From assembly GCF_032854445.1 (NCBI RefSeq), contig NC_088301.1:44689187-44753186 (forward strand): a stretch of 64,000 nt of DNA, written 5' to 3'. The stretch is from Liolophura sinensis. Its lineage: Eukaryota; Mollusca; Polyplacophora; Chitonida; Chitonidae. Position 1 is the stretch's first letter, and every line of letters starts with the position of its first letter. Below, piece after piece: positions 1-48,737 of the stretch. A model generated the notes under the pieces. It was not told the origin of the DNA and made no database searches. It saw only the letters and a list, made by a program, of their open reading frames with translations. A program made the position numbers and the translations under genes.

Positions 1-126
1 CCAGGTGACCATGCAGAAAAGTTGAAGAAACAGTGTAATGCAAGTAGATACAAATACAGTAAACCCACATAAACTACATACTGTAACAAACTAGACAAGC
101 TGTCCAATGATGGATGGGTTTTTTAC

Positions 127-294
127 CTTTCTCTGTAAGACGACTACTTTTCTGTCCTTGATGTCCAGATGATCCTTCAGCTCTGCAATCTCAGTCTCTG
201 TCCTTCGCTTGTCTGCCTGTGCAGACTGCACCTGCTTGCTCTTCTTCTCTATCCCAGAGTCCTTTTCTCGCAGCCTCTCGCGCAGGTCTTGAAT
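127..294 (-). CDS. ERC: ERC exon 4 (last in window)
   Basis: 56 codons, phase 0, acceptor TGTGCAG|ATT and donor AAG|GTAAAA. It reads IQDLRERLREKDSGIEKKSK at its start and HLDIKDRKVVVLQRK at its end. It matches human ERC1 from VDALRLRLEEKETMLNKKTK to MLDVKERKVNVLQKK. The coiled coil continues in exons left of the window. Confidence 0.93.
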
Positions 295-660
295 CTGCAC
301 AAAAGCCAACAATAATTTTAGCTTCTGCAGTGTTCATTCAGCCCATTATTTCTACTGTGACTGATATTAAAACCATATATAAAAATAATGCCAATGCAGT
401 CTTTATGTTTCGCAGGAAGATTTGTTAATTTTTAAAGAAAACTCTCTCCTATTCACAATCTGACTTTAACACAGGGTCAATACTTTTTCAAGCAAATTTC
501 ATCCAAATGTGAAGTCAGAATTCTGAAACATGCCATTTAACACAAGACTTACAAGTCAGTGAGTCACAAATCTAATAGTAATAGTAATAATAATAATAGT
601 AAGATCACACAAATCAATATAATTCCTTTTGGTTTCTGTAAGGTTTATCAGGCATGTGAA

Positions 661-703
<43 letters not shown>

Positions 704-3700
704 AACAACAAACAAAAAAGAAACAAAAAAAACTAAAACAAAACAAATGAAACAAGTATTTGTGAATTCAGCATTTAGACAAGCCAAATGACCTACACCT
801 GGTGTAAGGCAACACTTTGCAATAACCTTTGTAAACTTTGGAAGAGAAAATTGGGTCTTTTAATTGTTAGCCCAAACCATTGTTATGGAATTGGTGTCAT
901 TAATAACATGAAAAGTGTACGCTTGGGGTTTTAAGTCGTACATCACAATTTTGTCATATGGCAACTAGGAGTCATTAAGTATGTGTACATGCCGTGTCTA
1001 CTGGTGGCTGGGCGTCCACGTGCTGCCAAACTGCTACCACCGCTGAAGTATTATGCCGAATACACCCGACATGACACCCCACCACATTATACTGACACGG
1101 GGCCCACCAGTTCTGTTTCCTTGCTCTAACCTCTCAGTGTATGACCAGACCCAGGTTTAATCCCTGTTTCCTGACTTAGAGGTGGAAGCTCTAACCATTA
1201 GGCCACAAAGTAGTCNNNNNNNNNNNNNNNNNNNNNNNNNNNNNNNNNNNNNNNNNNNNNNNNNNNNNNNNNNNNNNNNNNNNNNNNNNNNNNNNNNNNN
1301 NNNNNNNNNNNNNNNNNNNNNNNNNNNNNNNNNNNNNNNNNNNNNNNNNNNNNNNNNNNNNNNNNNNNNNNNNNNNNNNNNNNNNNNNNNNNNNNNNNNN
1401 NNNNNNNNNNNNNNNAACCATGCACAATTTCGTTTGATAGGTGAATAATTACTGTCAAAACTAGTCGCATCAAAGATGGCCTGCTTTTATCAGCCACATA
1501 TTCTATACACAATCCATATAAAACTGTGATGTGCCATAAATTCATGCATCAAATACTCCCACGCGTTTGCAATTATGTAAGTTTTGATGAGGAGCTGATA
1601 TTTTATGACAGTCTACTGTCTTCTCAACTATTAAATGTATCTCTAGGGTAAATGTTATATGCTGTATAAATGTTTCTCGTAACTTCTGACTAAGGCTAGC
1701 ATGTTGTCTTCATCATATAATCTTCATACATGCCTTTCTTTGTATAATGTCTTACATGTCTTTGGATACAGTGATAGCTTTCTCCAGTAAGTGAAGGTTC
1801 TCAACTTTGTTTACACATTTACGCCTCATAGATATAATTATACAGATATTACCAAATTTTAAGTCTTTTTTACAAAGATATTTAGTACGCTATCCCAATA
1901 GATGCTTAGGATATTGTTGCACATATTTGTTCTTCCTGACCCAGTTGTTTGAAAGTGTATTAGTTAATACTGGTGGTATAAAGTCATACTTTATATTAAA
2001 TCTTTAGCCAAACTCAGCAGCCAATGCAGACCCCTAAAGTCAAAGTATAACAGCACCAGTTTTTTTAGGCTAAATACAAAATTTAAGATTTGGCTTAGTT
2101 TTAAATCCGGTCTTAAATCTTAAACCAGTTTTGAATAACCAGGTCCAGAATCTTAAATGTGAACAGCTTAAACGAAATTCTCCACGTTTTATACATGGAG
2201 TACATGTATAACAGCACCAGTTTTAGTTCATACTTAATATAATGTTACACAATTTTTTTAAGCTAAATACAAAATTTAAGACTTGACGTAAATTTAAATC
2301 TGGTATTAAATCTTAAACCAGTTTTGAACAACTGGGTCCAGAATCTGAACAGCTGTGAACAGCTTAAACAAAATTCTCACTATTTTATACACATCTGGCA
2401 TTCAAATTCAAACATGCTTGTGAGTTAAGTTCCACAAAATTCTTTTTAACACCTTGAATACATTTACACATTATAATAATCATACAAGTATGTTCGTACT
2501 ACCCCCAAAACCCCCCAAAACCCACTGTACTAGAACATACAAAGTAAGATTCAGGCATTCCTCTTCTACACGAGAGACGTACTGCACATTTACTGATTCT
2601 GAGTCGAGTCATTCATAAGGGCCAAACCAATAATCAGGCCAGCTTGTGCCAGTCTGAATTCAGCAGCGATAGGAACTGCAGAAACACTGTACATCACTGC
2701 GCATACTCTACGCTCTGCACATACTGCACACGTGCATATATACAAGCTTACATATCAATACGAGTAAAAACTAAACTAAAACAAATGTCCACCAGTTTGG
2801 GCACCTATGGAAAATAAGATGTAAACATGGATATTTTAACTGGAGTGAAGTATGCATACCCACTTACCGTATTTTCAAAAGATGCAAACATACATGTACT
2901 GTACAAACGTCTTAAAATCATATGTCACTTAACGTACACTCATTTTTGGACGATCATACAAATACAATGTACATGTACATGTAATTTCTTTGCAGAAATT
3001 AACTTGCACAAGACATAAATAATGAAAGTCTAAAATGCAGCCTACTGATTCTGCCATACTCTTCTTACAGAAAGTATAAGGAATTGATCACATATGTGCA
3101 AATGCTACAACGCTATCCTCACCTCAATTTGTAAAAGCTTGGAGATTGCCATCTTCAATGCAAAACCAATCTTAGTTGTAAAGTTAAGCCAATTTGAAAA
3201 TGTTCACCAACGCATAAAATGTTCTCATACCAGCCACACACTATTCAATCTACACTGCATTACGTTCAAAGTTTTTTCAAAACTACAACAATAACACAAT
3301 ATTATCATATCAACCATCACTGTGCATACATGTACACTTATGTGTATCCTTGTATGTTACATTTTTGTAGATTCATATTCACTAACTTATGAGTAACTAT
3401 CAATATAGATTAAATATCATGTAATTGTCATCTTTCAAGCACTAGCACAGGTGATGCTTAACCCAAATCTTTGACAAGTTGAATTACATTATTACATATT
3501 AAAAATCTGAATGATACACGAGGTTACATATAAATGTATGTAATATATTAAGCATAGTTAACACACACAAACCATCATTCACTCACCTTGGCCTCCAGCA
3601 TGGCTTGCATAGATGCAGTGTTGGCAGGCTGGGACTGAAGTTGTATTTGAGCATCATGGAGCTTGTCTCTAACGTTGGCAAGCTCCTACCATAGAAGAGA

Positions 3701-6700
3701 AGAGAAATTCACAGAGAAGAGACATCAGAATATATTTGTATTGATCCACAGGGTATTCCACGCTCTTCTGAGCCAGTAATACAATCTGGAAGGGTGCCAA
3801 GACATTTTGTATCATGACTATGAAATTGTGTCCTCAAAATCTACTAGTTCCTTAGCAAACATACTTAATAGTTCTCAAGGATGAAACCGTGTTGATAAAA
3901 GTGTTTAAAGGACCAAGGATCTTTGGATTGCATATGGACAAGTGATCACTGGCTGTGTTTCGAAGATTTGGGGGGCACATTTATTACTGATGCTCACTTT
4001 TCTATAGCTTGATGAAAATCTTCATTTATACAGATGAACTACATGTACAGCTATACTGACAAACTTACATGAAGACCTGATGCTAATGCTGTTTATAGGC
4101 TTGGAAATAAATATATCCTACTCTGTTCTTTAATAGAAGTACAATCTAACTAATATATTTCTTTAGCAGTAGCAAGTGTGAGGAGTTGTCATTAACTTAA
4201 AAATGTAAATCTTTGTAGATTCACCATGAATTTCAAACTTTCAATCTGTCAGACAACTACTATACTGCACATTCAAAAAAAAAAGATTGTCAACATCAAC
4301 ATTACAAAATTCATGTACATGTTATTGTCCATGTTCATGCATGAATCCATGAACTATTTATTTTAAGAAGTATTTTGCTGACGCTTTCAATACACATTTA
4401 CACATGTGCAGTATGTACATGTACCTGGTGATATCTCCAACAAACAGAAAGAAAACAACTGCTTCTGGAAATAAATTAATTTTGTTAAATGTCCAAAATT
4501 TACTAAAAACATCTATGATTTATTCTGGAGTGTGCTATTTATAAATGTATCTAGAGGATTGAACTGTTCAACAGAAATACATTATTTATTTATTTATTTG
4601 ATTTATTTATGTGTTTTACGCCGCACTCAAGAATATCTCATATATACGAATGCTGCCAGCATTATGGTGGGAAGAAACTAGACAGAGTCCAGGGGAAACC
4701 CACGACCATTCGCAGCTTGCTGACAGACCTTCAATCCTAGGGCTGAGGAGGATAAATACATGTATTCTTGTAGTCTTGAATTAAATGCACAAAAGGGAGA
4801 GACAATTTTAATCAATTGTTCTTTAATTAACTGATACATCTAATCATCATGCCCTCCATACTCACATCTTTTAAGGCAGATATTTCCTTTTCCTTTTGTG
4901 TCAAAACACGATCTGTGTGCTTCATTCGCTGTTCATCCTCAATAACCTGTGTGCGAAGTTTCTCCATCTGCAATCGGTCATCCTCTAATTGCTTCACCCC
5001 TAACCCTTTGCTCTGGAGCATTTCTAGAAGTTTCTTTATGCTTTCATCTCTTGCATTTAGTGTTTGTTTCTGTGTTTCAATACGTAACTCCATCTCCTCA
5101 ACAGTCTTGCGTAAGATTTTGATTTCTTTGATCTGTTTCTCTTTGTCTCGTTTGAGAGTATCTGTGAGGTCTGGGTCCGAAATTTGGCTGGACAGGCTTC
5201 CATTATGCCGACTTAAACTACCGCTCTGATGACCCCCACTTTCCTCGATTTCCCTTACTCTTGACAAGAGTCGCTGGAATTAGCAAGAAAAGACAAATAT
5301 AGAAAACACATCATAATCAACAAGCTTTCACCTGTGAAAATATGTAAGAATACATTTATGTCAACAATGCCTGCACATTGTAACACTGCTACAAACACAA
5401 GCCCTAAATAACCTAAGATTTTGTCAATGACTACCTTGCTTATTTTATGGATTTCTGGGAATTTTGTAGATTTTTAGAAAGGTGCTCTAAGGTTTGTTTG
5501 AAAGGTAGAATGGTATTCTACTGGAAAAATGTTTTAGCATCAAAAATAATATTTTATGACATTTATTTGCCTCTAACAATGCACTTTTATGATCAAAACT
5601 TTAGGTCATTTAGGGTAAACTCAAAATATATGCCACACTGTGACAATTAATAGGAGTGATAAAGAAATACAGCTGTAATACTATTGTGGCCATCAGGCTG
5701 GTATTTTTCTATCTTTTACCAGCTTTTCTATCGTATGATCCACATGCAAAAAACATCATTAAATTCTAACAACTTCATTAGAAAAGACCAGCTTCATTAT
5801 ACAATACTACATGTTCTACTAGAACTTGAATGTACATGGATATGAATGTGTATAATTTCCTGACATGTTACAGCCCCTTATTTATTTCCATCTTTTGTCA
5901 CTTACTAACTCTGTGATAAATTTATCTTGAAGAATAACCATAAAACTACACTGAAACTCTGTGATAAATTTATCTTGAAGAATAACCATAAAACTAGACT
6001 GAAACATGTTTCTTCAAAAATGAGAGCTTCAACAGTAGTTTCCTTTCACGTCAACAAGCACTAAATTACCAATTTTTATCTAATCTATGTTGTTCATTCT
6101 AGTGCAGTAAACATAGAAAACTAAATTTTAGAATGGGCAATCCTCAAATAACCCTGCCTTCATCCTCTCTACTGTCTTATTTGCTTGTCAACTACACGTA
6201 CCACACCTAAACTTCTGTAAAAGACCAACTTTCTACTCAAAGCTGGGAGTGAAACATATGGGCAACAAATTAGCTTATATCTACTTGTTTCCCTCATGTA
6301 TGATCAATTTCTTAAAGTCAACATAAAGTCAGCCACTAAAGTTAAACAAATTAAAGTAGTATAGTAAACAATTGTCAGTATCTAGCCACTCATTTTGTTG
6401 ACGCCACTTTGCCATGTTGTACATGTAGCTATCTAGAGTGACAAAAGTCACAAAACCTAGGAGCTCTCCCATACCATTGGTATTAAACAGTGACACTGGG
6501 AAAACACAAACAAAGATGCTTAATATCCCACCAAAGAATATCAGCTCTGTTCTGTGTTCAAAGGACTGATGTTTCTTTTAGTCTGGCACTTGGTTGAGGG
6601 TTTTCGTGGACACAAGTGTCCTGTTTTAGTGGTTCTGCTCGTCCTCGTCCTGCATGGGTGAAAGCATTTGGCCTAGCTGACTGTAGCCACTTTAGGGAAT

Positions 6701-24302: not shown

Positions 24303-27300
24303 GTAGATAGATATTGTTAAGAATATTATGTTAATGTGACTTGTGAAAAAGGAATCTTTCCACTTTCGTTGTGAATTGTGGATGATATCTGATTGCATTA
24401 GTTCTTATGCCATGTTCAATCCTCATGATTTGTTTCAGCTGCAACAACAACATAAGACCGTAATATTTTCTAACTAGAACTTAAAGCAGATATTGTGATA
24501 AGCCTAGGGACATGTTACAAGTATAGAATGATCAAGAGTTCCAAAAAGTGTTGCTCAAATGTTGCTTGGTTTCATTCAAGCAGTTATTTTATAGTCTTTC
24601 TGTAGCCGTCCTAGCCCTGGATGACTACACCGCGCTCTATTATATTTGTACTGACGCTCGGCTAGTCCTGTCTGGGTCGCCTTCGCCCTNNNNNNNNNNN
24701 NNNNNNNNNNNNNNNNNNNNNNNNNNNNNNNNNNNNNNNNNNNNNNNNNNNNNNNNNNNNNNNNNNNNNNNNNNNNNNNNNNNNNNNNNNNNNNNNNNNN
24801 NNNNNNNNNNNNNNNNNNNNNNNNNNNNNNNNNNNNNNNNNNNNNNNNNNNNNNNNNNNNNNNNNNNNNNNNNNNNNNNNNNNNNNNNNCCAATCCGACC
24901 CGTGCTTGTATTAACCTGACCAAAACTCCTGTGGCCTTGGACAATCAGACTAATGTTAATTTTCTAACTCTGTATCTCTAATATGCAGTTGTTTGAATGG
25001 TATGTACATGTATTTTTTCTTCTTGTTTTAGGCAGAGTTTACTGAGGAGGAACATGCTGCTATACAAGCCGCACTGCGACAGCGGTTGGGTCCAGAGTTC
25101 ATTAGCCAGAGGCCTGGGCAAGGAGGTCAAAAAGTAAACTTCATCACTTATCTCAATTACTTCTATATAATTTATAATCAGTTCAGTTGAGTTATTGTCT
25201 TGGAGTCATGGTTTTGATTGATTTACTATGATTACAGTGGGTAATCTAAAATCTTGCCCATGACTACATGCCAAGTTGCACATTTTTTCTGGATTCTAAG
25301 AGCTCTATAGATCCTCAAAAGGTGTTTTAAAGTTTGTTTGTAAGGTAGGAAGATTAGATACTGGAAAAGTTTCAGCATCACAAGGAATTTTCGGGGTTAT
25401 TTATTTCTCTCTGAAATTGCACTATTTTTGAGCGAAACTTTAGGACATTTACCGTACATGTTCTTCCAATCCTTATGTCTGCCATTGTAGAACTCGTTGT
25501 ACACAGTTGATAAGTGAAGATCTCTTCTCTCTATTTGCAGTTAGCATATATTGAAGGATGGCGACTGGTTAACCTGGCAATGAAATGTTTGGATTTAATG
25601 GCTGGTCTCACTCTGTTACACAGCAGACAGTTGGTAAGAGCAGTCTTTTGGTGAACAGCCACCATAAATCTGTCCGCACACTGTGATGGTGAAAATGCTA
25701 TCAAACCTGGCCTCATGCATAAGCCTGGTTGTTGTTAAATTGGCAAATCTTGGTACATGTACTTTTTCTGACTTTCCTAATATAGAGAAGGACAGATCAG
25801 GCTAGTTTCCTTATTTCTGGGTGTGTCTCTCACGATGAGTAGCCTCTTTTACATTCTATTGTTCATTGTAAAATCCTGTTCAGTATGAAACGGCTTTGTG
25901 GCAGAAATCAACTTTAGAAACAAATGTGTGAATATTTGTGACTACTATCATGTCCATTTCAATGTTTCAGATTTTGTTGATCATCATAATGGCAGATATT
26001 ATGTGGGGGTTAGTGCATGTGTTAAAGTACAGTTAAAGGTAAGAAAAATGTTTCCTCCCCGACAGCCATTACTACCACCTGTGCAGATATGTGGAGTAAC
26101 TAATGAGATAATACATGTATATGTAATATAAAGTCAAGGGAGATACTGTCAAAAGAAATTCAGAATTTTTGAGTTGGTTCAGCTAAATACAAAAACTCCT
26201 GGGACTATGTTTTCTGAAAAAGGGCAAATTCGTCACAGGATAGATTGAAAGCAAATTATAAGTATAGTAAACCAGAATTTTTAAGTTACATGGTAGGCCA
26301 TACAATTACAACACGATACCGTGTCTGTTATTTCTGAGATTGCTGAACATCTCCTATCGGGAGGGTGGTGGGTCTTGTAACCGAGTCAAAAAGCCAAAAG
26401 TCAGTCTTGTAAATAGAGTGACTTGAGTGAGTTAATAAAAACTGAACATTTGATTGTTCACTTAAAGCCAGATGCATTTCAGTAGACATTTGGGAAGTGT
26501 CAAGTTTATGTTGGATGACGTCTAAACTAACTGCACAAGTCTTTCACCATCGTCAGTATGTTTCTTTCAAGGATTATTTTATTACAAGATAGTTTAGCAC
26601 CCTTAGAATTGAAGGGATGTTTATAAATGTAACAGTCAATATCTATTATCTGTAGGATGAAAAATGATAGTTACAGTATCTTACATAGTTCAAATTGGTT
26701 ATTCTTTTTATTTGAAGCCTTTCAGTGATGGTGTGTGGGATTTGTATTAAAAACTTTTTAATCATGAGAAGTACATGTAGTATTATTCAGTTACTATTTA
26801 TGTCAGTGAAGTAAACAAGTTCATTGTGAAAAATTTGGTTTTTGAGTGCTTGGCCCACTTTCACAAAATTTTGTAAACCAAGATTTTGTATGTTTCCTTG
26901 TAAATCACCTCCTCCTTACGGCCATAAAACCAGAGTCATTTATAAAGAAAGAAACGAGAAATTTGATTTTTGAAATTTTCTGAAAAGCAGCTTATGATAG
27001 TGAGTGAACAGTCAGCCCACATTAGAGAAATAGAAATTTTTTTGAAGTTGCATTTGATTCTGTTAACTTTTTCTTTCAGGATGGAGTTTTTCCATGAGGA
27101 CATGGGTTATGGCAATAGTGAAGGAATGAAATCAAAATCACTGTCACTGGAAAAGGCTAGAAAAGAGGCTGTGACAGATGGTCTAAAAAGAGCCTTAAAG
27201 TAATGTTATATTTTGGTTGATGGGTGAAAGCTATATTGGAATCACCTTGTCTGTCCATCTGTCTGTCTGTAGACATGGTTTTGCCAGTGCAAATCCTCCC

Positions 27301-35660: not shown

Positions 35661-36460
35661 ACAACTATCACAAATTTTTCATCCAAGCAGAAAACTATAG
35701 TATTATAAACAATGAATTTTGCAGACAGAATGAGCCAATGCAATATGTATGGAACGAACACAACGGTGGTTAGATATTTAATGCTGATAATGCTTTTTTA
35801 CAATGAAAAAAAAAAAAATTAACTTGAATAATGTTTCAGACAAGTGTGAAAACATTTAAATCATAGGTGGGTATAATGTAGTAACTTACCTGTTAAAAGT
35901 TCATAATTTTATAAAAAAACACATTTTTAACCCTTCACAACCACACATTGCAGGTGATTAAGAATGTACGTAAATTTACGTAGTATTGACTTCAAAACGA
36001 CAAGTGTTTCTCCATACCCCGTAGAATATACTTCTGAATGTAAGTAATTGGTCCATCGTGTTTGTACAACACCACTTTAACATTAACCAAATGGATTCAA
36101 CCATGCAACTTCTGGATGAAATCATCTTTAGTACTTAGAATTACAAGTGAAAAGAAACATCTAGTTCAAGAGAGGTCCTTCTGGCACTTCATATTGATCC
36201 TAGAAGGATTTGGCATCAACCAGAGCTTCTCTGGGTTTGATTAAATCACTTTAAATTTCTGGTCTCATTCTTATGCCAGTAAAATTAGTTCCCACCAGGA
36301 AAAGTGAACTTAGGAGTTTTTAATGATATTGTCAGTAGTTCCTACATCAGACAATCAACCTTGAACCATAGGTACATGTGGCAGCAGGTCAGCCCAACAA
36401 TGATCTCAAAACTAATCAACTACACGGACTGATGTAGTGACCTGACACAATCTTGTTACA

Positions 36461-36570
36461 CTAATAAGAATGTTCTTTGTGCTTCTTCTTTTTCTTTTTC
36501 TTTTTGTGGGCACCTGATGGTTCATGATGGTCATCAGCTAGGACCTCTGAATAACGGGTTGCCGAAGATT
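36461..36570 (-). CDS. POLR1G: POLR1G-like last exon
   Basis: Reads SSATRYSEVLADDHHEPSGA then eight lysines, HKEHSY and TAG at 36461-36463. The frame remains open through all 12 exons to this stop, which supports the model strongly. Confidence 0.82.
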
Positions 36571-39500
36571 CTGTAAAATAAGTTTGAAATCTAATTTATG
36601 AAAAATAAAAAGAAACAACTTTTAAAAAATATCTGTGACTTTGCTGATAATAATGAGATTACAATGCCTTGCACAAGGTATTTGCTGAAGACCACTTATC
36701 TTTCTCTGATATGGTATGCATATCTATATGTTGCTTGTGGGAAAACAAAAATCTTGATAATGGTGTTAAACAACAAACAACCAAATAAATATTAGACATA
36801 CTCTACACACCAGTAAATTACTACCAGACATAATCGTACGCTGGCAAATTACTAGACATCAAGCTTATGCTCATTTCCTCTCATACTAGGAAGGCCTGCT
36901 AGCAACCTGCTGATGGTTGTGGGTTTCCCCTGGTGTCTGTTTTGTTTCCCTTGCCGTTGTAGAAGTGAAATATTCTTGAGTATGGCAAAAACAGCAATCA
37001 AATAAATCTAAAAATTAATACATACAGATACTATCAGACATACACTAACTGATCACAAGAAGAACCTGTCAAATGGCAGCTAAAATGAGAGTGGCCGAAG
37101 CCTAAATGTAAGCACTTTGTAGTACTAGATTTCAGTATCAGGTTGTTCTGGCAATAAGATACGGAAGCATAACAGAGAGAAATGGCTAGTCTTGTTTATT
37201 AATACATACCAGACTGATCTTGACTGTGCTTTGTTTTTTTCCTTCCAAAAACAGATGGTTCATCATCCACATCTGTATAATAATCTGAAATTTATAGCAA
37301 AAAGTCATGCCACGCACCGTCAGTCACAAGTGGTACTCTTAAGATCTAAAACTTGAAGTTTTTTTGTAAGGATTTAATTTTTTCCACTTTTGCTTACAAA
37401 ACAAACACCTATGACCACAAGGATGTTTGGCTATGAAACCATTAACAGAAGACTTCCTAACAACTTTATTTGCACTACCACTATAATCACTAGCCGTTTT
37501 TGCTGGCAGTACAATGAGTGAGAAAACGAACTGTCTAGAAATGGATGCAATAAGAGTTAAGGTGACTGTAGTTTTATTTAATAATACATACCAGACTGAT
37601 CTCTGATCTGCTTCTTTCTTTTCCTTTTAGTAACAGGCCGGCTATCATTCACATCTGTGTAATAACCTGAAATTTATAGTAAAGTCAGGTCTGTCACAAG
37701 TGGAAGATAAACTAACGAAGGCTATCAGGCCAAGAAAAGTTGATTTTCTGTGTCTATGATTCACGACATTCTCCACCAGAAAAAACATTTCTGTCATCCG
37801 TGAATGTGTTGCACTGCATGCAGTTGTTCCCCTTTGAGGAACACTATGGCATTTAAAATCGGGAGAATGATTCTTCCTTTATATATGACTACCCTAATTA
37901 CTCAACCTTTTCGCAAATGTAAGAGCAACTCTCAGTGCAATTTTTACCTATAATACCTTCGATAATACCTTTAGAATATGCTTGAATAAACACTTTGTAA
38001 ACATGTGAAAATGTTGACGACTTACAGTCTATATTATACATGTAAGCCAGGTTTAAACTAAGAAAAGTTGGCAGCTCGAGGCAGGTTTATGTTTACATGA
38101 CTAGCGCAAAAAAGTAACCTGAACTGAGCCGGATCCATTCCAGAGTTTTTTTTCTGATACACCAAGTGGTCTAAATTATAATGTTCAGTCCGCCGCAAAC
38201 GCCCAGATGGTAATCAATGTCTCACGTCCATAGTAATAACTGATGTGATAGGAGCAAGTTTGTGCCTTCTATAGGCAAATCTTACACTATATATACTGAC
38301 TGACATGTGAAAGCAAGCAGCCATAAATTGGTGAAATAAACAAAGCAAGCGTCACACCTAAAGTTAACTTTAGGACAACCATTGCCATCACTGAAATAGG
38401 AAGTACCCTAATTCTTCCACCTTTTTAACCACCTGTCCAGGCCAATCAATATTTTAAAAGATTGTGAGAACTACTGGGTGAACAGAAATAATTTGCAGTT
38501 TTTAATAGGAAGCTTGCATCTTCAATGACACAAACAAATAATTTTAGCTTCAATTCAAAATAAATGAATGTATAAATTTGAAAGAAAAAACTGGTTTAGA
38601 GGTTGAAGATTTACAGCAGAGCATATATGTTATTAATCAAAACAGTTTTATGTAAAGATGTGCTTCTTCATCCACATCTGTATAATGATCTGAAACTTAC
38701 CTGTATAGTAAAAGTCATTTCACACACACATACACTTCCTTGGTCACGAGTGAATCTCTTAATATCTAGAACTTGTCAGCGTTATTAGTGAGTATTTGGT
38801 TTAAATGACTTTCAAAAGAAAAAGCAACGGCCCCAGAAGTGGGTATGGCAGGTAGTAGTAACCAACCGTGGCGTGATTTTTGGGAGGCTTATAGTGAGGG
38901 ACACTGCAATTTTCTTTGATAACACACACCAGATTGACAGGTGGGCTATCATCCACATCTGTGTAATAGTCTGAAATTTATAGTGAAGGCTCACATCACA
39001 CACAAATACATTGTGTCAATCACAAGTGAGTGAGTAGAGAACAGGCCCTTAGCGAGTGGTTGAAGCAGTTGCCTTTCAATTGCCTGGAGACACAAGATAC
39101 TGGTTCAAAGCCACCCTTGGACAGGGAAGTCGATTCCACCATTCTCAGTGTGTTTGGTAGGTTTAGTAGGTACAAGTTGCATTAAGTTTTATTGTGACAC
39201 TTCTTCTCATGTTCAGCAGTTTTCCTGTAAATTTCCTACCACCATACATCATGACATGTTTACCTATAAATAGAAATGTGAGATTTATTGTTCCTGTGTT
39301 TGTATGCACTGGAGTAGGTAGAGCTGAAATCATATAGAGAGATCATGGCATACGTCTCTCTACTTATGTATGTGTAATTCTGATTATACATACCAGACTG
39401 ATGTCCACTATGCTGTTTCTTTTTCCTTTTAGTAACATCATCCACATCTGTGTAATAATCTGAAATTTAGTTTCAAGTCAGATTACACCTACACAGATGT

Positions 39501-42500
39501 ACACTTTCTTCAGTTACAAGTGGAACTCTGAGAGCTACAAGCAGTGAAGGTTATTAGGGGACAATAAGTTAATTTTCTCAAGCACTGCTTGCATGACACT
39601 CACCACCAACTTCACAGTTTTGGCACCATATCTTTCTATAAACTTGTACTTTCAAAGGCATTAGATTCATCACGCACATAGATAAGCCTCCTCTCAGTCA
39701 AGAAAGCTGTGTCTGCTAAAGTAGGCAACAATTTTAAGCCAGTTTTGAGCTACCTGTCCTAACAACCATCGCCATGAATGCACAAGTCAAATGAATAGTT
39801 TATAAAAGGAGGTTGTGAAGTACATGCAAAGAAAAGGTTTCATGCACGCTTAACTTTTGTAATGGAAAATAGAAATAAAATCTTTCACCCAAAAAAATGC
39901 CTGAACAACAAAGAAACAAATTTGTGTGGCCTTACATGATTATATACTTTTTATAAGGAATAAGGAATGGTGACTGTGACATTAAAGTGGCCCATGTTAT
40001 AATAACGAACAACAGTATTTTCATTTACTAGTACCACAGGTATACAGGTATGTAAAATATATAAATAATAATATAATATTTCAGACTATATATAGCGTGT
40101 TATATGGTGCAGTGCATTTCAACATACATATTCCTTCCAGTCTGTCTAGCAACTGAAACTATGTTTAGAAATGGGTATGGCAGGTGGTTGTAAGCAACTG
40201 TGACCTTATAATGGGAAGCGTTACAGGACCGGACAACTGTAATTTAATTTAGTAAAACATACCATATTTATCTCGACTATGCTTTTTTTTCCTCCTTTTA
40301 GTAACAGATTGGTAATCCTCCACATCAGTATAACAATCTGAAATTTATAGTAAAAAGTCACATCACACACAGGCATACACTGTCAGCCACAGATCACAGG
40401 TCTCTAACTGCAGAGTGTAAACTGGCGGGTGTTGTTACAGGTAGTGAGTGGGGAGCGGGCTCTGACCAAGTGGTTAAGATGGTTGTACACGGAATTTGTA
40501 GATTTCACCACTCTTGAACGACAAAAATTGTGGAACTCTTAAAAGCTAGTGAGAATTATTAGTCATTAGGCAGCAGGCCATGAAAAAGTGGTTGAAGTGG
40601 TTGCATTTTAATTGAGTCATGGCTCCAACTGCAAGTAAAATATGGTTCTCAACTCACAAATGGCGACAGATTGAGACACTGTGGCAAGTACATGTGTATA
40701 AAGAAAGGTTACTGCAAGTGTGTCAAATCTATTGACAAGGCATACATAAAAAGATTATGGTGATTATGTGCAACTTTCAGCCATTGCGTCAGCACTCACT
40801 CACCCCAATGGGAGATGGGAGGCTCCTGGGTCATAGCGCCACGTGGGCGTGCTAACCCTCTCGACCACAGAGGCTCCAAAACCGAATAAAAAGTCACGTC
40901 ATAATCTGTCCTCAACTAATAGCAACATAATAATTTTTAGACCAGCATACAAAAACTCTTTCAAGCATCTGCAATAGAAGACTACAACATGCTTTATAAA
41001 TTTAATATGTGATTTTTGTTTTACTCAAGACGTTTACAACATATCTAACCTCTTTCTTTTTTTCTCTTGCGAACATCTATTGCTTCATGAGGGTCATCCT
41101 CCACTGAGGATTCATCAACTATGACCTCAGTCTGATGGACCATGGGAGATTCTGTAAAATGAAAGTCAGTTTACACCTATACTAAAGCAGAAGCAGATTT
41201 CAATAAAACATACAGCATATCGTGTTGATGTACCATATGAAATGAATGCAGAATAAGTGACAGAATTATTGGTATTAACAGCAATCTTGATCAAATCAAA
41301 TCATCTATAAACTGTTAAAATAAGAATACTAACAAATCAAAAATGTTCACAAATATGTATAACTGACAGAAGCTTCTAACCAGCACTTTCTTGGATGCAT
41401 TAGAAGCCAAACTCCTCGGGGACCTTAGCAAAACTGTAGTTTAAAAGCCATTTTTACATCCTAAGAAGAAAGTTAAGAAGCTTTTATGCACTTGTACATG
41501 TTAGGCCACACAATATACTCCATATTAAGTAAAAACATTTGCCTCAGCCAGCACAGGCCCAATAAGTGAAACTTGATCCAATAAATACAAGGAAATGTAT
41601 GTAATACATTATGAATTTTCTGGCATGTGTTTCATCCAGAATTGTGGACTTGATGGGATTTTTTTGACGGGTTACTTATTTGACAGTTTCGCAGCATCAA
41701 TCTTTAATGAATACGTAAAAAGCTACCAAGGCAAACTTAAATAAAGACAAAGAAACCTGAAAAACTACCATGTTCATAACTAACAAACCTTACTCTGTGA
41801 ATTTAAAATACCACATACCAGACAAATGTCTTTTGTGCTTCTTTTTCTTCTTCTTGCTGTGTTGTGAGCCACTGTTCCTTACGGGAGACCCTGTCAAGGA
41901 AAAAAACAAATGCAAATCAGCAAAGATTAAGATATTCCCTAAAACCTCAAAAACTGAACAGGGAAGAAACTACATTAGGGGGGGTTGTCAATCTTTAAAT
42001 GTTTCAATGAAAATGTTATTTAGATAATCCACGCGGAATAATATTCTAAGTGTATGACAATATAAATACCTTCGGTAAATATGAAAATGTTATGTTAAAA
42101 TTTATAAAACAGTTCATATTGAAACATTTTAAAAACTTACAATCATTTTAACACTATAGATAGTAAAGTACCAGTCTCGTAAGTACTGCAAAAAAAAAAT
42201 AACTTGACCTAGTCTTGGGAAAGTACAGAAAATTTGATTTGATTAGTGAATAGGGATTTGGGGTCAAAAATCTCTAGTGTAGCCTCCTTAAGCACAAAAT
42301 GTGGTAGTGGCTAAAACATCCTTGCTTAGAAGTATATTTGTAAGCCAGTTTCATTATATCTTGTAGATACATATATAGTATTCTAAAATAATCCTCAACA
42401 AAAGGGGTAAGACTTTACCAGGCCAAACACCAGGCTAATTCAAATCACCACATTTTTACTGGAATTACAAATTTATAAGTAACAATTATTAAAACCTCTA

Positions 42501-45500
42501 TGAAATCCTACTTGAACTGAAACAGGGCTTCAGAATGACTTATCATTTTAGTCTGAAAGAATGCCAAATCTACATCTACCAAATCACCTGGTGTCCAGCA
42601 GGCAGTCCGAAGTTGTCTACTGGAGCCAATCAGCGCCCAATCCACCTTAGCATGTTGTGCAAAGACTGCTGAACTGATCTATAAAGTTTACTGGACTATC
42701 CAATGAGAGCCAGGAAATGTCCATCATTAAGAGCATGTCTCCATGTGTTGTACATTCCAAATGACTTACCTGACCCTAAAGGTTGAAATCTAGCTTTCAA
42801 TCCTTCTGGTAGTGGTTTAGGTGCAGGAACTATTGCCGCTGGAATTAAGACTGGAGGGACTGCCACTGACTGGACAATGCTGAGAAGCCCACGGATTTCT
42901 GAAACTAACCATGGATTATTTAAGTTTTGATGTTGTTATTTGAGATTTACACTCAAATTTACATTACAGGTGTAGAACAGATTCTAGAGCTGAAAATTGG
43001 GCTGGGACCATTCTGAGACCAATGATAGGCACCAAATCTTGATTGAACAACCAAGCTTTTCAAATAGCAATTTTCATTGCAATCTCTTTAAAAACTTATT
43101 TAACACATAATGCACATTCTAGAGCTTTCATCTTCGTCGAATCCTTAAAACACTATGCATTTTATATTAAATTGTTTCCACTCTGTTTCACAACACATTT
43201 ATTTAAAAAAAATATTAAAACTGTTTACTTGAGTTTATTAATGTGATATGCTCTATTCAACAGTCACAAAATCATGTTAATAGCTAAAATGAAACTTATG
43301 TGTCACAGAGGAAGAGTGAAACAGGTTCTGGAAAACCACAGCCAAACAGCAGCATCAGGATTTAGGAGATGGACCTGAACAAACAACTTGTGGTGTTTCA
43401 GTCTGACATAACCTCTTCTTAGATTTTATGCTCAGTTCAACCGAGTAATCAGTACCAAATCTGACCAATGTTGAGTAGAAGAGTCTACAAATTAGTTTGT
43501 AATTTAAAACCATTTCACATTTTTCCCAACTATTCTGGTTACATGATGTATCATTAAAGGCAAATACAAATCTATGGACGAATCATAAAAACAGTTAAAA
43601 TTGACAGAAAACACTTATTTACAACTCTTAACTGAGACAAGACACACTTATACATTACACAACAAAGTAGCATGACAGTAATCAATCATTTCTGAAGATC
43701 CTGTTTAGCACCAATCCATTTTTTGATTAAATGTGGCCAAATCATAAACACTTTCATTGTCTACTTTTGCAGTGGTCCACTGGGATATAATCACATGGGT
43801 ATACAACATATTCCCCCAGTTGAAGTGAAGATCAAATTTTAGAGACCAAACACCCAATACAAGAATAGGCTTTGTACCTGCAACCATCTTCTTACTATTG
43901 GATACGACTGGTTGAACGTTGATCATCTGAAAGAAATCAAAAGATATGCTTAAAAAAAGTTAATAGTCTGAGGGGAGAAACATCTGACCTCTAAATTGTT
44001 AAGCTCAATGTTCTGTTCCTGTACATTAATATGCAATCCTAAATGTATTAAGCATTCATATTTGTGGTGAATAGCTGGTTAATTCATGCTTCTATAATGA
44101 GGCATAATCATTAAATTGAAATTATCAAGATCATTCTTATCGGTCCCCCATGGGATCTCATAGAACTCTCCTGTTTACATAACTTAAAAAAATGAGACAA
44201 ATAACTGTCAAAAAATATTATTTTTGAAACTTATTGTTTCCCATGCTTCTTTGCTTGTAAGTTACCATGTTTATTGATACCTTCCAAGATACACTGTAAC
44301 ACCTTTGTAAGATCAAAAGCTCTCAGAACCATAAAAAATGAGTAGCTTAGTAATGGACAAAAGTAATGCATCGTTTGAGCTGGAGGCTTATTTCATTGCC
44401 AACATATATTGAAAAAGACATGTCAGACTTACTTCATTAGTTCTTTCTTTTGATGCTTGTACTTCAAATGAGTTGTTCCCCTGTGACAAAAACAATAAAA
44501 TAAAATAAACAAGACACACAACATGAATAAACCACTCTTATGAATATATCACCAAATATCACTTAGTAGACAGAAAGATGGAAACAATTCATTACTTGCT
44601 TTTGGCGTATACAGTATAACACTGTCTGTGCAAGACAAAAATATTCTAATCATTACTTTTGCAATACGAAGTGTGCAACAAAAATCACTCTAAATGACAA
44701 TCATTACCTACAACACCAAATGTGCAAGACAAAGTGTACATTACTTGAAATACAAGGACCACTCAGTTTAGTTACAAACCTTCATGTGGAGAATAATGGA
44801 CAGCATTTCAGTAGCTTACTTATTTTGAGCTTAATTCAAAACAATTAACAGTGTTAAATCAAGTATTTCCACTGTGAGTTCAAGCCCAGCTCAAGCTGGC
44901 TTCTTCTCTGGCCGTACCTGGGAAGGTCTGTAGCAACCTGCAGATGGTTGTGAGTTTCCCTCTGGGTATGCCGGTTTCCACCGACCATAATGCTTGCCGC
45001 CGTTGCATAAATGAAATATTCTTGAGCACGGCATGAAACACCAATCAAAAAAAAATACAATAAATACAATGATTATTAGTTACTTCTGTGTATCATGAAC
45101 AAAATAACTGAACTCGTCTATTGCCCTTTTAATTGCATAGATCTCCTTGGTTTTAATAGATCTACATATTCCATGGGTTAACACATTTTATCTTTTGTTA
45201 ACTGCATTCAGCAATGATGGCTAACAGAGTTGGGCTGCACCAGCTATGTTTGTGTTAATGAACAGTCTCTTATTATTCACAAATACATGAGCCTAGGTCA
45301 TATGCAGTCAGAATTACTTCTGGAAACCTACTTTTGTAGCCTCATGTTTTGACCTGATGAGCACACCAGATGTGAAAAGACTGTGCTGTAGGTTTAATGA
45401 AAAGAGTACAGGTGTGTATTTCTGAAAGCTAAACTGGGAAGTATGAAAAGTTTCAGATCTAGGTTCAAAACAAAATTAAACACCAAGAGAGCCAGACAAA

Positions 45501-48500
45501 GCCACCTGTACACTAGAAATTTTCAGCCATGTTAGATCTGAGAATATTTCCATTTGTTTTTATTTGCTGTGTACGATATACATGTATCTGTACAAAAGGA
45601 AAGACTTAAAGTGAGCACAAAGTCTTCCACTAAAGCTGAAGTAATTAATAAAGTAGTATTCCACAAATGTTCTAAAAAATTTTAAAAAATTTTACACTGC
45701 TTATCAACAAAATAAATAGCAAATAATTGGCAGTACCTAGCCACTCATTTGGTGACACAATTTTGCAACAAAATGAATAGTAAACAATCGTCAGTACCTA
45801 ACCACTCATTTGGTGACGCCATTTTGCCATGTTATAGCTATCTAGAGTGACGTCACAAAACCTAGGAGTCCCCCGTACCATCGGTATTATGTGACAATAT
45901 GACGAGAAGATACAAACAAAAATGCCGGATACCCAACCAAAGAGTATCAGCATTGTCCTGTGTTCAAAGGGGTGATGTTTCTTTTAGTCTGGCACTTGGT
46001 TGAGGGTTTTCGTGGACACAAGTGTCATGTTTTAGTGGTTCTGCTCGTCCTCGTCCTGCATGGGTGAAAGCATTTGGTCTAGCTGACTGTAGCCACTTTA
46101 GGGAATTTACCGAACATAGCAGGACCTTCTCATTGATAACACTTTCATTCAGATTTTGGGAAGATGTTTTTGTAATAAATCTGAATTTGCAAGGAAAAAT
46201 AATACAAAGTCTTAATATTTTTCTTTAAGCAAAGACTCTTCAGAGGAGGTTTTCTTGCCAGCTCACCCTGACAAGTTACTGCAGTATCCTGCCCAAACAT
46301 GTACGCATTGTGACCGGAGCAGCAGTTCTCAGTTCCCTGCTCACAAATGTGTGGTTCATGTGTGCATCAGTTTAACATTTACACTAACTGCAATATCCAA
46401 TTTATTGCATCGATATCTATCTATCCGCTATAACAAACCAAACTGAAAATCTACAGCTAATAGTTTTTTTGACATGACAGCGAATTATCACGTGACGCTT
46501 TCAGCAATAGTGGTTGGCCAAGTTCATAAGGGCTTCTACAACATGGCTGCTCGGAGCGAATTGTTCGTCAGTGCCATATCCTCAATGCTGAACTTCATCT
46601 TCTCGGCTTTCAAAACTTTATAGAATTTTTTATGTATTTTTCTGTGATAGCTGTATCCTATATCAGTTTTCTATATAACGTATATATAATGGCAAACATT
46701 ACGTTCATTTTAAATACTGAGTGTAAGGGTCAATTATCTGTAAACAGTCTGTCACTACTATTAAAAAGAAAATTACCAATTCTGATGGTCCTAGTGACTG
46801 AACACCTTGGAGAAGCAGAGCTTTCCCTTTCATGTTGTTTAGGTCAAGCTGAAAAGATAGCAAAGAAAGAAATCTATGACATTTCAATCACTTCTGATAC
46901 CAGTATACATGATAGTTGGTAATTCCATTAAATTACAAAGCGGATTTAAATGGAAATCACCATTTTGAATACACTTACATATGCATGTATTAATCATTGT
47001 ACCTACATGCTTATGATATGTTACACATGAAATGGAATTCTATCTTTATAAGGAATGCTTTATCATGTCACTGTATAAACGGTATGTACCTGACTGAAAT
47101 TTAAATAAGCAGTACAGGTATATATCCCTGAAGAGAGCCCTAGTTCAAAACTGCAATGCAGCTGAACTGTAACAAAAAAACACCATCTTCTTTTGGGGTG
47201 GTGGATGGGGGTGGTGGGAGTGGTGGTGAGTGGTCAAATATCAGTAGTGATGAAAACAGAATATCACATTTCTTTCCAGCTTTTTGGAAAGATATGAGTA
47301 TGTTGTTCATTAGATGGTCTAAGCATGTGAGAAAAAAAAAACTGAATATCCCTACAGTCACACGTATCTTGTCTAACAAGAGCAGACCCAAAAATCAGAG
47401 AGAGCAAGTGAGTGCTTGGGGTTTAACGCCGTACTTAACAATCTTTCAGTCATATATGGACAAAGGAGTCCTTCTGGCCAAACATTACAAGAAACAGGGT
47501 ATGTGATTTTAACCTAAAAGTTCAACAAAACTAAAACTGAACAACTTACCCCAGCTGGTGCACGAACTAACCACAAGTCCGTTTTCTCGGAGGAATCCTC
47601 TTCATACCACAGGCATCCTTGATGATCAATGTTAAAACCTTCGTCCACTTCCACATTTTCATGATTTCCCGTTCTAGAGGGCGCCTGTTCCTGCTGCCTT
47701 CTCAACATTTCTGCTTCAAATGTCTTACTTATGCCAATATCCTCCTCAGAACTGCTGTCACTGCCAGATCCATTGAACTGATAAATGTCTGTATCTTGGG
47801 AAGGTGTTGGTGGTTTGGGAGATGACTTAGAAACACTAATGCTCTGCTTTTCTGTTCTACGCAAGGGGATTTGCTTTCTCATCAGTTCTGCATGAAATGT
47901 TTTACTAATCCCTGTATCCTCCTCAGAGCTGCTGTCACTGTCTAAGTTTACTGCCAAGGTTGATGAAGTGGACGCTTTGTAAGGAGATGCACCATTTGAG
48001 CTTTTCTTGACCATCAAGGCACTGGTCTTATTATCCTGCACTGAGGTAGGGGAGCCACTAGGTTTGTCCTTGGTTTCTGTGTGTTTTGTTTTAACAGGAC
48101 TTTCTACATGTGTTCCACTGGACTTTTCAGGAGATTTATGTTTCAATTTTTTTGTCTTCTGCTTCCCTTTTATGGGTCCACTTTGAACACTGTCTGATGA
48201 CCTGAACTCTGAAAAGTCCATGACTGAAACTTGCATTTTGTCATCTCCTGGCACACACAATGATTTATGATGAAGAGGAGAAGTTTCTAAATCACTTTCC
48301 TCAGAACTTCCTCTTCTGTTTCGCTCTGTTACCCGAGGTACCCTAGAGGATGACTGTTTCCTCTTTACTCTTTCTTTGCTGGGCACATCCCCTGATTTCT
48401 GTACATTTCTGTACTTGTTACTGAGCTTAGATATGCTAGTTCCAGGGCTCAACAAATGAATCTCTGGGTCAGGTGAATGAATTTTCTGGGTTTCAGTTTT

Positions 48501-48737
48501 GTTGCCCCTTAGTGACATATGCTGACCAACCTTTTTTCTTAGTTTTTCTTGTGAAGATTTTAAGTTCTTCATTTCTCTTTCTGAGTCAGTACCTTTCTTA
48601 GTAGATCTATCACTTCTGCTCTTTTTAGAATTTTTAGCGGGTCTTAACTGGACCTCAGCTAAGTTACTAGATGCTTTCTCTACCATTGTTTTCCTGAACA
48701 ATTCATCTAATTCCACATCTGACTCATTGCTGCTCAT
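36461..48737 (-). CDS. POLR1G: POLR1G-like RNA polymerase I subunit (PAF49/CD3EAP/RPA34 family), 12 exons
   Basis: Likely the Pol I-specific subunit that pairs with PAF53/RPA49 in the nucleolus for rRNA transcription. Exons: 47550-48737, 46777-46848, 44433-44480, 43878-43926, 42770-42898, 41819-41890, 41050-41151, 40263-40337, 39394-39459, 37592-37666, 37210-37284 and 36461-36570. Joined, they give one open frame of about 686 residues with GT/AG borders. Family evidence: DLWLVRAPAG (human ELWLIQAPAD) followed by NNMKGKALLLQG; then PKPLPEGLKARFQPLGSG (human IPPGLRPRFCAFGG); then a long tail of acidic patches alternating with KKKKKKHKRH, KRKKKQHS and similar blocks, as in human POLR1G. Unusual: 386 residues precede the LWL motif, where human has about 45, and the tail comes from duplicated phase 1-1 exons. 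The assignment rests on short motifs and overall build; without a search an unrelated nucleolar KKE/D protein is possible but less likely. Confidence 0.78.
36860..37025 (+). repeat. SINE family 2 copy
   Basis: GCAACCTGCTGATGGTTGTG, TTGCCGTTGTAGAAGTG, AAATATTCTTGAGTATGGC and CAATCAAATAAATC tail; inside the last POLR1G intron. Confidence 0.65.
37210..37284 (-). CDS. POLR1G: POLR1G-like exon 11, array copy F
   Basis: 75 bases, phase 1-1: DYYTDVDDEPSVFGRKKTKH then SQDQSG. The donor and following intron (GTATGTATTA) are shared with copy E. Confidence 0.83.
37592..37666 (-). CDS. POLR1G: POLR1G-like exon 10, array copy E
   Basis: 75 bases, phase 1-1: YYTDVNDSRPVTKRKRKKQI then RDQSG. Closest to relic copy C by the SRPV/SPPV segment. 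Confidence 0.83.
38665..38689 (-). pseudogene. Decayed array exon copy D
   Basis: Begins DHYTDVDE after AAGTTTCAG, then runs into unrelated sequence without basic block or donor. The flanking intron still matches the other units (TCACACACACATACACTT). A relic of the duplicated exon. Confidence 0.7.
38930..38970 (-). pseudogene. Decayed array exon copy C
   Basis: Same acceptor and start (DYYTDVDDSPPV) but an internal deletion removed the TKRKKK part and left 41 bases, which is not a multiple of three. The donor region reads CTGGTGTGTG. Using it would break the POLR1G frame, so I read it as a relic in the intron between exons 9 and 10. Confidence 0.7.
39394..39459 (-). CDS. POLR1G: POLR1G-like exon 9, array copy B
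   Basis: 66 bases, phase 1-1: DYYTDVDDVTKRKKKQHSGH then QSG. It lacks three codons found in the 75-base copies. Confidence 0.83.
40263..40337 (-). CDS. POLR1G: POLR1G-like exon 8, array copy A
   Basis: 75 bases, phase 1-1: DCYTDVEDYQSVTKRRKKKH then SRDKYG. Acceptor context ATAAATTTCAG is shared with the other copies. Confidence 0.83.
41050..41151 (-). CDS. POLR1G: POLR1G-like exon 7 (acidic patch plus RKRKKERG)
   Basis: Phase 1-1, reads ESPMVHQTEVIVDESSVEDD then PHEAIDVRKRKKER. It resembles the last exon (ESSATRYSEVLADDHHEP... KKKK), suggesting that the two are related copies flanking the array. Confidence 0.8.
41819..41890 (-). CDS. POLR1G: POLR1G-like exon 6 (first lysine block)
   Basis: Phase 1-1, reads SPVRNSGSQHSKKKKKKHKR then HLSG. 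Opens the basic tail; ends TCT G|GTATGT like the duplicated exons farther on. Confidence 0.8.
42770..42898 (-). CDS. POLR1G: POLR1G-like exon 5 (PLPEGLKARFQPLGS motif)
   Basis: 43 codons' worth, phase 1-1: EIRGLLSIVQSVAVPPVLIP then AAIVPAPKPLPEGLKARFQ and PLGSG. The LPEGLKARFQPLG piece parallels human IPPGLRPRFCAFGG at the end of the folded domain and is the second-best family signature here. Confidence 0.82.
43878..43926 (-). CDS. POLR1G: POLR1G-like exon 4
   Basis: Reads MINVQPVVSNSKKMVA and ends in phase 1 (G|GTACAA). From here every intron is phase 1, which allows later exon duplication without frame loss. Confidence 0.75.
44433..44480 (-). CDS. POLR1G: POLR1G-like exon 3
   Basis: 16 codons, phase 0: GNNSFEVQASKERTNE between CACAG|GGG and GAA|GTAAGT. 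FEVQ is in keeping with the beta strands of the PAF49 dimerisation fold, but the exon is too short to judge alone; it is supported by frame and splice sites. Confidence 0.7.
44866..45072 (+). repeat. SINE family 2, nearly complete
   Basis: Has a B-box-like GAGTTCAAGCCCAGCTC, then GGGAAGGTCTGTAGCAACCTG, ACCATAATGCTTGCCGCCG, GAAATATTCTTGAGCACGGC and an A-rich tail. In POLR1G intron 2. Confidence 0.7.
45606..46713 (+). mobile_element. piggyBac-like MITE, copy 2 (in POLR1G intron)
   Basis: Same family and orientation as 6312-7235, bounded by TTAA at 45606-45609 and 46710-46713, ends TTAAAGTGAGCACAAAG and (reverse complement) TTAAAATGAACGTAATG. It is longer because a segment with the ACAATCGTCAGTACCTA block is duplicated inside (about 45715-45830). 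It lies 63 bases past the exon 2 donor of POLR1G. No coding capacity. Confidence 0.72.
46777..46848 (-). CDS. POLR1G: POLR1G-like exon 2
   Basis: 24 codons, phase 0: LDLNNMKGKALLLQGVQSLG then PSEL, donor TTG|GTAATT. Continues the conserved N-terminal domain after LWLVRAPAG. A TTAA-flanked MITE ends only 63 bases beyond the donor, inside the following intron. Confidence 0.8.
47405..47480 (-). repeat. SINE tail fragment, same family as 915-1215
   Basis: AGTGAGTGCTTGGGGTTTAACG and CGTACTTAACAATC followed by CAGTCATAT; the 3' end of the SINE only, next to the POLR1G exon 1 donor. Confidence 0.5.
47550..48737 (-). CDS. POLR1G: POLR1G-like exon 1: 386-residue charged N-terminal extension plus LWLVRAPAG
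   Basis: 396 codons from ATG 48735-48737 to APAG|GTAAGT. Ser/Lys/Glu-rich and probably disordered, with many basic clusters (KRKQSSSRVPR, KQKTKKLKHK). Two related acidic modules occur near residues 262-290 and 325-350, each with SDSSSEED then GISKTF and AE; the very N-terminus (ESDVELDELFRKTMVEKA) looks like a third, diverged one. SSEED runs are good casein-kinase-2 sites by pattern. The segment GFNIDHQGCLWYEEDSS leads into the conserved DLWLVRAPAG at residues 387-396. Confidence 0.85.

Follow-up and report, generated by a model that had tools for sequence, protein, structure and literature searches.

A chiton POLR1G gene with a charged C-terminal tail probably lengthened by tandem copies of a small symmetric exon

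The closest described relatives of the system considered here are the C-terminal repeats of the RNA polymerase I subunit A34 (RPA34, PAF49; POLR1G in human). According to the accessible part of PMC11765491, A34 tails consist of repeats in which an acidic stretch is followed by a lysine cluster. The number of repeats is given there as nine in human, eight in cat, seven in mouse, four in zebrafish, and three each in sea urchin, fly, fission yeast and budding yeast; the tail is proposed to be a repeat-bearing counterpart of the C-terminal domain of RNA polymerase II that grows from yeast to human. This article concerns a 12-exon gene on the minus strand of a 64,000-nucleotide stretch of DNA (hereafter the window) from the chiton Liolophura sinensis (NC_088301.1, positions 44,689,187 to 44,753,186). 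To judge from its sequence, the gene is the chiton POLR1G. We think it probable that tandem copying of a symmetric exon has extended its tail, probably after an older duplication of a block of two exons. The tail resembles the A34 repeats in belonging to the same subunit, in its acidic-then-lysine order and in its variable repeat number. It differs from them, as far as PMC11765491 is accessible, in that each of its seven blocks has an exon to itself and that homologous intron sequence reveals the origin of the blocks.

Two further systems invite comparison. A review places POLR1F first and POLR1G fifth in the human set for lysine (K) blocks plus glutamate-rich regions, and associates K-blockiness with partitioning into two components of the nucleolus, the fibrillar and the dense fibrillar (PMC10936679, accessible sections). 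As in the nucleolar tails of this type described there, such as those of POLR1F and TCOF1, lysine blocks in the chiton protein lie between acidic stretches; its modules are short and mostly carry aspartate (YYTDVDD) rather than being rich in glutamate. At the level of gene structure, the relevant cases are the PEVK region of titin and elastin. Tandem duplication of symmetric exons is established in these repetitive proteins, and the chiton gene shares with them tandem symmetric exons whose copy number can change without loss of frame. Unlike them, it encodes a small subunit of the core transcription machinery, and its array is old and degenerate, with two relics.

Exon boundaries in the chiton gene were placed by hand using open frames and splice sites, and the exons are named E1, E1b, E2 to E6, A1 to A6 (the array) and E7 (the last). 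The stretch between E6 and E7 carries one phase 1-1 exon six times in tandem; four of the copies are open and two are broken. An earlier note on this DNA had reported four live exons and two relics at 37200-40640, and they are present as it stated, on the minus strand. Three of the open copies have 75 nt, namely A1 (40263-40337; peptide DCYTDVEDYQSVTKRRKKKHSRDKY), A5 (37592-37666; GYYTDVNDSRPVTKRKRKKQIRDQS) and A6 (37210-37284; DYYTDVDDEPSVFGRKKTKHSQDQS); A2 (39394-39459; DYYTDVDDVTKRKKKQHSGHQS) has 66 nt and is three codons shorter. All four are phase 1-1, with TTTCAG before the exon and GTATGT at its end. The relic A3 (38930-38970, minus strand) has 41 nt and has lost both its lysine block and its symmetry. 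It keeps its acceptor and has a GTGTGT donor; inclusion would lead to a stop in the next exon, and a weaker donor four bases further would preserve the frame. The second relic, A4 (38637-38689, minus strand), also retains its acceptor and reads DHYTDVDEEAHLYIKLF and then an in-frame TGA. Its internal GT dinucleotides are, by eye, not donor-like, and a poly(A)-signal-like hexamer is found downstream of the stop, at 38506.

The 11 introns of the gene have phases 0, 0, 0 and then 1 eight times, so that every boundary from the E3 donor (exon 4 of 12) onward is phase 1. The phase 1 boundaries that the earlier note gave for the repeated exon are borne out in all four open array exons. Because the exons are phase 1-1, the gain, loss or skipping of a module leaves the frame intact.

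Homologous exons set within homologous flanking introns identify the array, on sequence grounds, as a tandem duplication. Comparison of 36400-42000 with itself gives 21 direct off-diagonal matches at E ≤ 1e-3; 100 first-order Markov shuffles average 0.01 such matches, and none has more than 1. Several of these reach into introns, as expected from the earlier proposal that the exon was duplicated together with its flanks: the match of 39386-39604 with 37202-37409 extends 145 nt past the exon, and one at 40214-40380 runs about 43 and 49 nt past it. When bases 1-62801 are divided into 14 tiles of 5.6 kb, the tile with the array yields 18 matches, ten others yield none and three others yield one each. 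A profile built from five units recovers those five, A4 (E 1.1e-10) and E5 (nhmmer, E 1e-4), and the next row has E 0.67. Pooled identity is 0.73 for exons, 0.63 for upstream flanks and 0.58 for downstream flanks (gaps penalised). Random pairs of 30-mers have a mean identity of 0.42 and a 99th percentile of 0.58, which the downstream value just equals, so that flank homology is thin there outside the BLAST pairs. The array is absent from the output of Tandem Repeats Finder. Elsewhere in the window, the first tile (1-5601) contains one strong direct self-match (139 bits), and two runs of 200 N (1216-1415 and 24690-24889) represent gaps or withheld stretches.

Two quite different origins of the copies can be set against these data, and both are extremely improbable. 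The first is an assembly error or the presence of unmerged haplotypes, for which a reported heterozygosity of 1.24% might speak; the copies, however, differ by about 27% in exons and by 37-42% in near flanks (gaps counted), far above that heterozygosity, and the genome was assembled from HiFi reads with duplications purged (PMC11068029, accessible part, for heterozygosity and assembly). The second takes the unit for a dispersed mobile element that became exonised several times. Heads of a short interspersed nuclear element (SINE) do occur in two units, but they lie outside the repeated core, and whole-genome searches return the array only: 37190-37700 as a DNA query finds five places, all inside the array, and at E ≤ 10 the consensus peptide has matches in the four open exons only. 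These searches covered 632 contigs (609,464,459 bases); common words are passed over in them and scoring is limited to the top candidates, which leaves absence elsewhere unproven.

Whether the copies are in use is a separate matter. Pooled over six non-independent pairs of open exons, the ratio of nonsynonymous to synonymous differences per site (pN/pS) is 0.57. In the same pairs, the acidic part has pN 0.10 and pS 0.28, and the remainder of the exon has pN 0.25 and pS 0.39. In a neutral-decay simulation without indels, at least four of the six copies remain usable with a probability of 0.13, 0.05, 0.016 and 0.007 at 0.15, 0.2, 0.25 and 0.3 substitutions per site, respectively; with indels at one tenth of the substitution rate, the probability is 0.006 or less. 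Survival of four usable copies is improbable in most of the neutral settings tried. Since exons are more alike than their flanks, pN/pS is 0.57 and neutral survival is improbable in most settings, use of the copies is likely, and the open copies are likely to be included in the mRNA.

The same data bear on the view that the array consists of pseudo-exons, that the working transcript skips all six and that four open frames persist by chance. Two of the six copies are indeed broken, skipping would preserve the frame, the tail is reported to be dispensable in mammalian cells, and neutral survival reaches P = 0.13 in one setting. Four open frames with matching splice sites argue the other way, as do exons that are more alike than their flanks, a pN below pS and the low probability of neutral survival in most settings; we regard pseudo-exons as unlikely. 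Less likely still is that the open exons are optional cassettes and that the relics act in splicing, where A3 would serve as a poison exon or A4 would provide an alternative last exon, so that splicing would set tail length or dose. This would fit the phase 1-1 boundaries of every open copy, the acceptor and GTGTGT donor of A3, whose inclusion leads to an early stop, and the poly(A)-signal-like hexamer downstream of the A4 stop. Such a hexamer is, however, frequent by chance in AT-rich DNA, the donor four bases on would let A3 stay in frame, and no sign of constraint on the relics has been seen, none having been sought.

The reading preferred here, a tail extended by tandem copying of exons in use, includes an older layer that involves the exons on either side of the array, all on the minus strand. 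E5 (41819..41890, phase 1-1) encodes the lysine block KKKKKKHKRH; E6 (41050..41151, phase 1-1) encodes an acidic stretch and then RKRKKER; and E7 (36461..36570) encodes an acidic stretch, KKKKKKKKHKEHSY and the stop. The likeness of E6 and E7 is not confined to their lysine codons (71% over 49 nt; z 9.9, 0 of 300 shuffles), and E5 resembles A5 (Smith-Waterman z 7.7, 0 of 300 shuffles). Together, the similarities of E6 to E7 and of E5 to the array, weaker than those within the array, suggest two rounds of duplication. The E5-E6 block would have been duplicated first, yielding the ancestor of the array and E7, and one member of the second block would then have multiplied into the array. Such an older block duplication probably underlies the array.

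The identity of the gene rests on its joined exons, which form a single open frame of 686 aa with a single stop (TAG, 36461-36463). Against the Pfam family RNA_polI_A34 (PF08208; cut-off 31.7 bits), a 324-aa construct that includes E1b and runs from the end of E1 through to the stop scores 61.8 bits (E 1.2e-16). A second construct with E1b, which keeps the complete N-terminus and lacks the tail, scores 50.9 bits. The POLR1G-like identity proposed from the letters alone is supported by the family profile. A search of PDB places A34.5/RPA34 chains first among five rows, as a weak match (E 0.011 and 0.012). Searched exon by exon, the whole genome contains PF08208 at this locus alone, with 22 bits, in E4. 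Even with the partial genome duplication reported in Liolophura japonica (PMC12005716, accessible part), the profile finds one locus. The partner subunit A49 (PF06870) has four matches on one contig of the same genome (C8), one of them above the cut-off.

The upstream exons, likewise on the minus strand, are as follows. E1 (47550..48737) starts with ATG, is open up to the donor GTAAGT and ends in phase 0. It encodes an N-terminal extension of about 380 aa, followed by LWLVRAPAG, which is the first strand of the A34 domain; the Pfam match starts within E1. By eye, the extension contains two copies of a DSSSEED-GISKTF-AE motif and lysine-rich stretches. E1b (46777..46848; LDLNNMKGKALLLQGVQSLGPSEL; phase 0-0) is the best of five candidates from a splice-site scan of the E1-E2 intron and reads like the A34 domain. 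A 662-aa gene model lacking E1b was dropped; it scores 29.1 bits for RNA_polI_A34, below the cut-off, and has no PDB matches. E2 (44433..44480) is phase 0-0, E3 (43878..43926) runs from phase 0 to 1, and E4 (42770..42898; phase 1-1), with the PF08208 match, reads EIRGLLSIVQSV...GLKARFQPLGS. An intronic tandem duplication of 61 bases (two copies, 87% matches) lies at 45705-45827 within the gene, and a search against Rfam (4227 families) gives no match above the gathering score.

This picture of a chiton POLR1G tail grown by exon duplication is complicated by several points that weigh against it. Inclusion of the array in the mRNA is a prediction from the DNA. The pN/pS of 0.57 is weak and purely descriptive, and four copies survive neutral decay with P = 0.13 when divergence is lowest and indels are left out. 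Identity of the downstream flanks is no higher than the random 99th percentile. The similarity of E5 to the array is confined to the 3' half and the donor, and acidic residues are absent from E5. Supports in a tree of five units reach only 68 and 73, too weak for the order of duplications, and the exon-by-exon PF08208 match in the genome stays below the cut-off. With all this taken into account, the reading as a whole, including the probable E5-E6 block duplication, remains a probable one.

SINE heads bear on the argument for one pair of units. The earlier note had placed them in several units and taken them to show that the duplicated DNA contained the insertion; they are found in two of the six, twice at A1 and once at A3, all on the plus strand. 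The tRNA-derived head upstream (in the sense of the gene) of A3 (39044..39135) has three other genomic matches. The two heads upstream of A1 are decayed, and their coordinates include some preceding bases: A1a lies at 40442..40485 (head from about 40458) and A1b at 40561..40614 (head from about 40576). The tRNA-derived family with this type of head occurs at 14 genomic places within two mismatches, and at none in a reversed control. Over the first 40 nt, A3 and A1b have an identity of 0.75, and A1a has 0.59-0.60 to both. Against six genomic heads, which were chosen by pattern and are thus biased towards the consensus, A3 has 0.61-0.78 (mean 0.69) and A1b 0.53-0.72 (mean 0.62). In the 15 nt preceding the head, A3 matches A1b at 10 and A1a at 11 positions; against the six genomic copies, A3 matches at 2-8 and A1b at 2-10. 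A1 and A3 also have a common downstream stretch (69 nt, 72%). A shared insertion in the A1-A3 pair is mildly favoured by these comparisons; as the four other units have no head, the heads are uninformative for the full array. By eye, a further tRNA-like SINE head, of a different family, lies at 40780-40890 (minus strand), with no further copy in the window at E ≤ 1.

In the predicted protein, the 191-aa tail has 50 lysine or arginine and 34 aspartate or glutamate residues and contains seven lysine blocks, one per exon. All seven tail exons contain a 7-residue window with 4-7 lysine or arginine residues, and in six of them (not E5) 2-9 acidic residues precede it. Each open array exon would add one module, in which an acidic stretch leads into a lysine block and a short polar segment closes the unit. 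The order of acidic stretch and KRKKK block described from the letters is seen in the open exons, with a weak block in A6 (4 lysine or arginine residues in 7). Tandem copying of the small symmetric exon with its flanking intron would in this way have lengthened a charged C-terminal tail. The tail, presumably disordered, would act electrostatically in the partitioning of polymerase I into the nucleolar fibrillar centre; its role is likely to be that of tails with lysine blocks plus acidic stretches generally.

The mechanism is known in kind. What is new, within the open-licence literature in PubMed Central (PMC), is its place, the layout of one module per exon and the visible relics. Nothing was found there on POLR1G with exon duplication; among the papers listed on tandem or symmetric exon duplication, none concerns POLR1G by title or abstract; and the only match for Rpa34 with lysine-rich and exon concerns SUMO in meiosis. 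In its accessible part, a paper on the fly orthologue (PMC10823793) does not mention exons or repeats. The table of PMC11765491 has no mollusc, and the strings "exon" and "mollus" are absent from the accessible main text. The parallel with human lysine-block repeats drawn in the earlier note is borne out by the nine repeats listed for human in that source.

Seven blocks in a mollusc may be a poor fit to a steady rise from yeast to human, with the proviso that the counting method may differ from that of PMC11765491; the comparison suggests that tail length varies by lineage instead. Exon number might also act as a dial, in that differences between individuals, tissues and chiton species would set the number of lysine blocks, and hence fibrillar-centre partitioning, under selection. 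We consider this unlikely; if true, splicing or copy number would alter the lysine-block count of a polymerase I tail and the strength of its nucleolar partitioning. The earlier note set the chiton gene against human POLR1G, whose repeats would lie within one exon; if vertebrate repeats share one exon, introns cannot reveal their origin. Every repeat of the chiton tail forms an exon of its own whose flanks can be recognised, and gain and loss of tail modules are therefore traceable and can be counted in related genomes.

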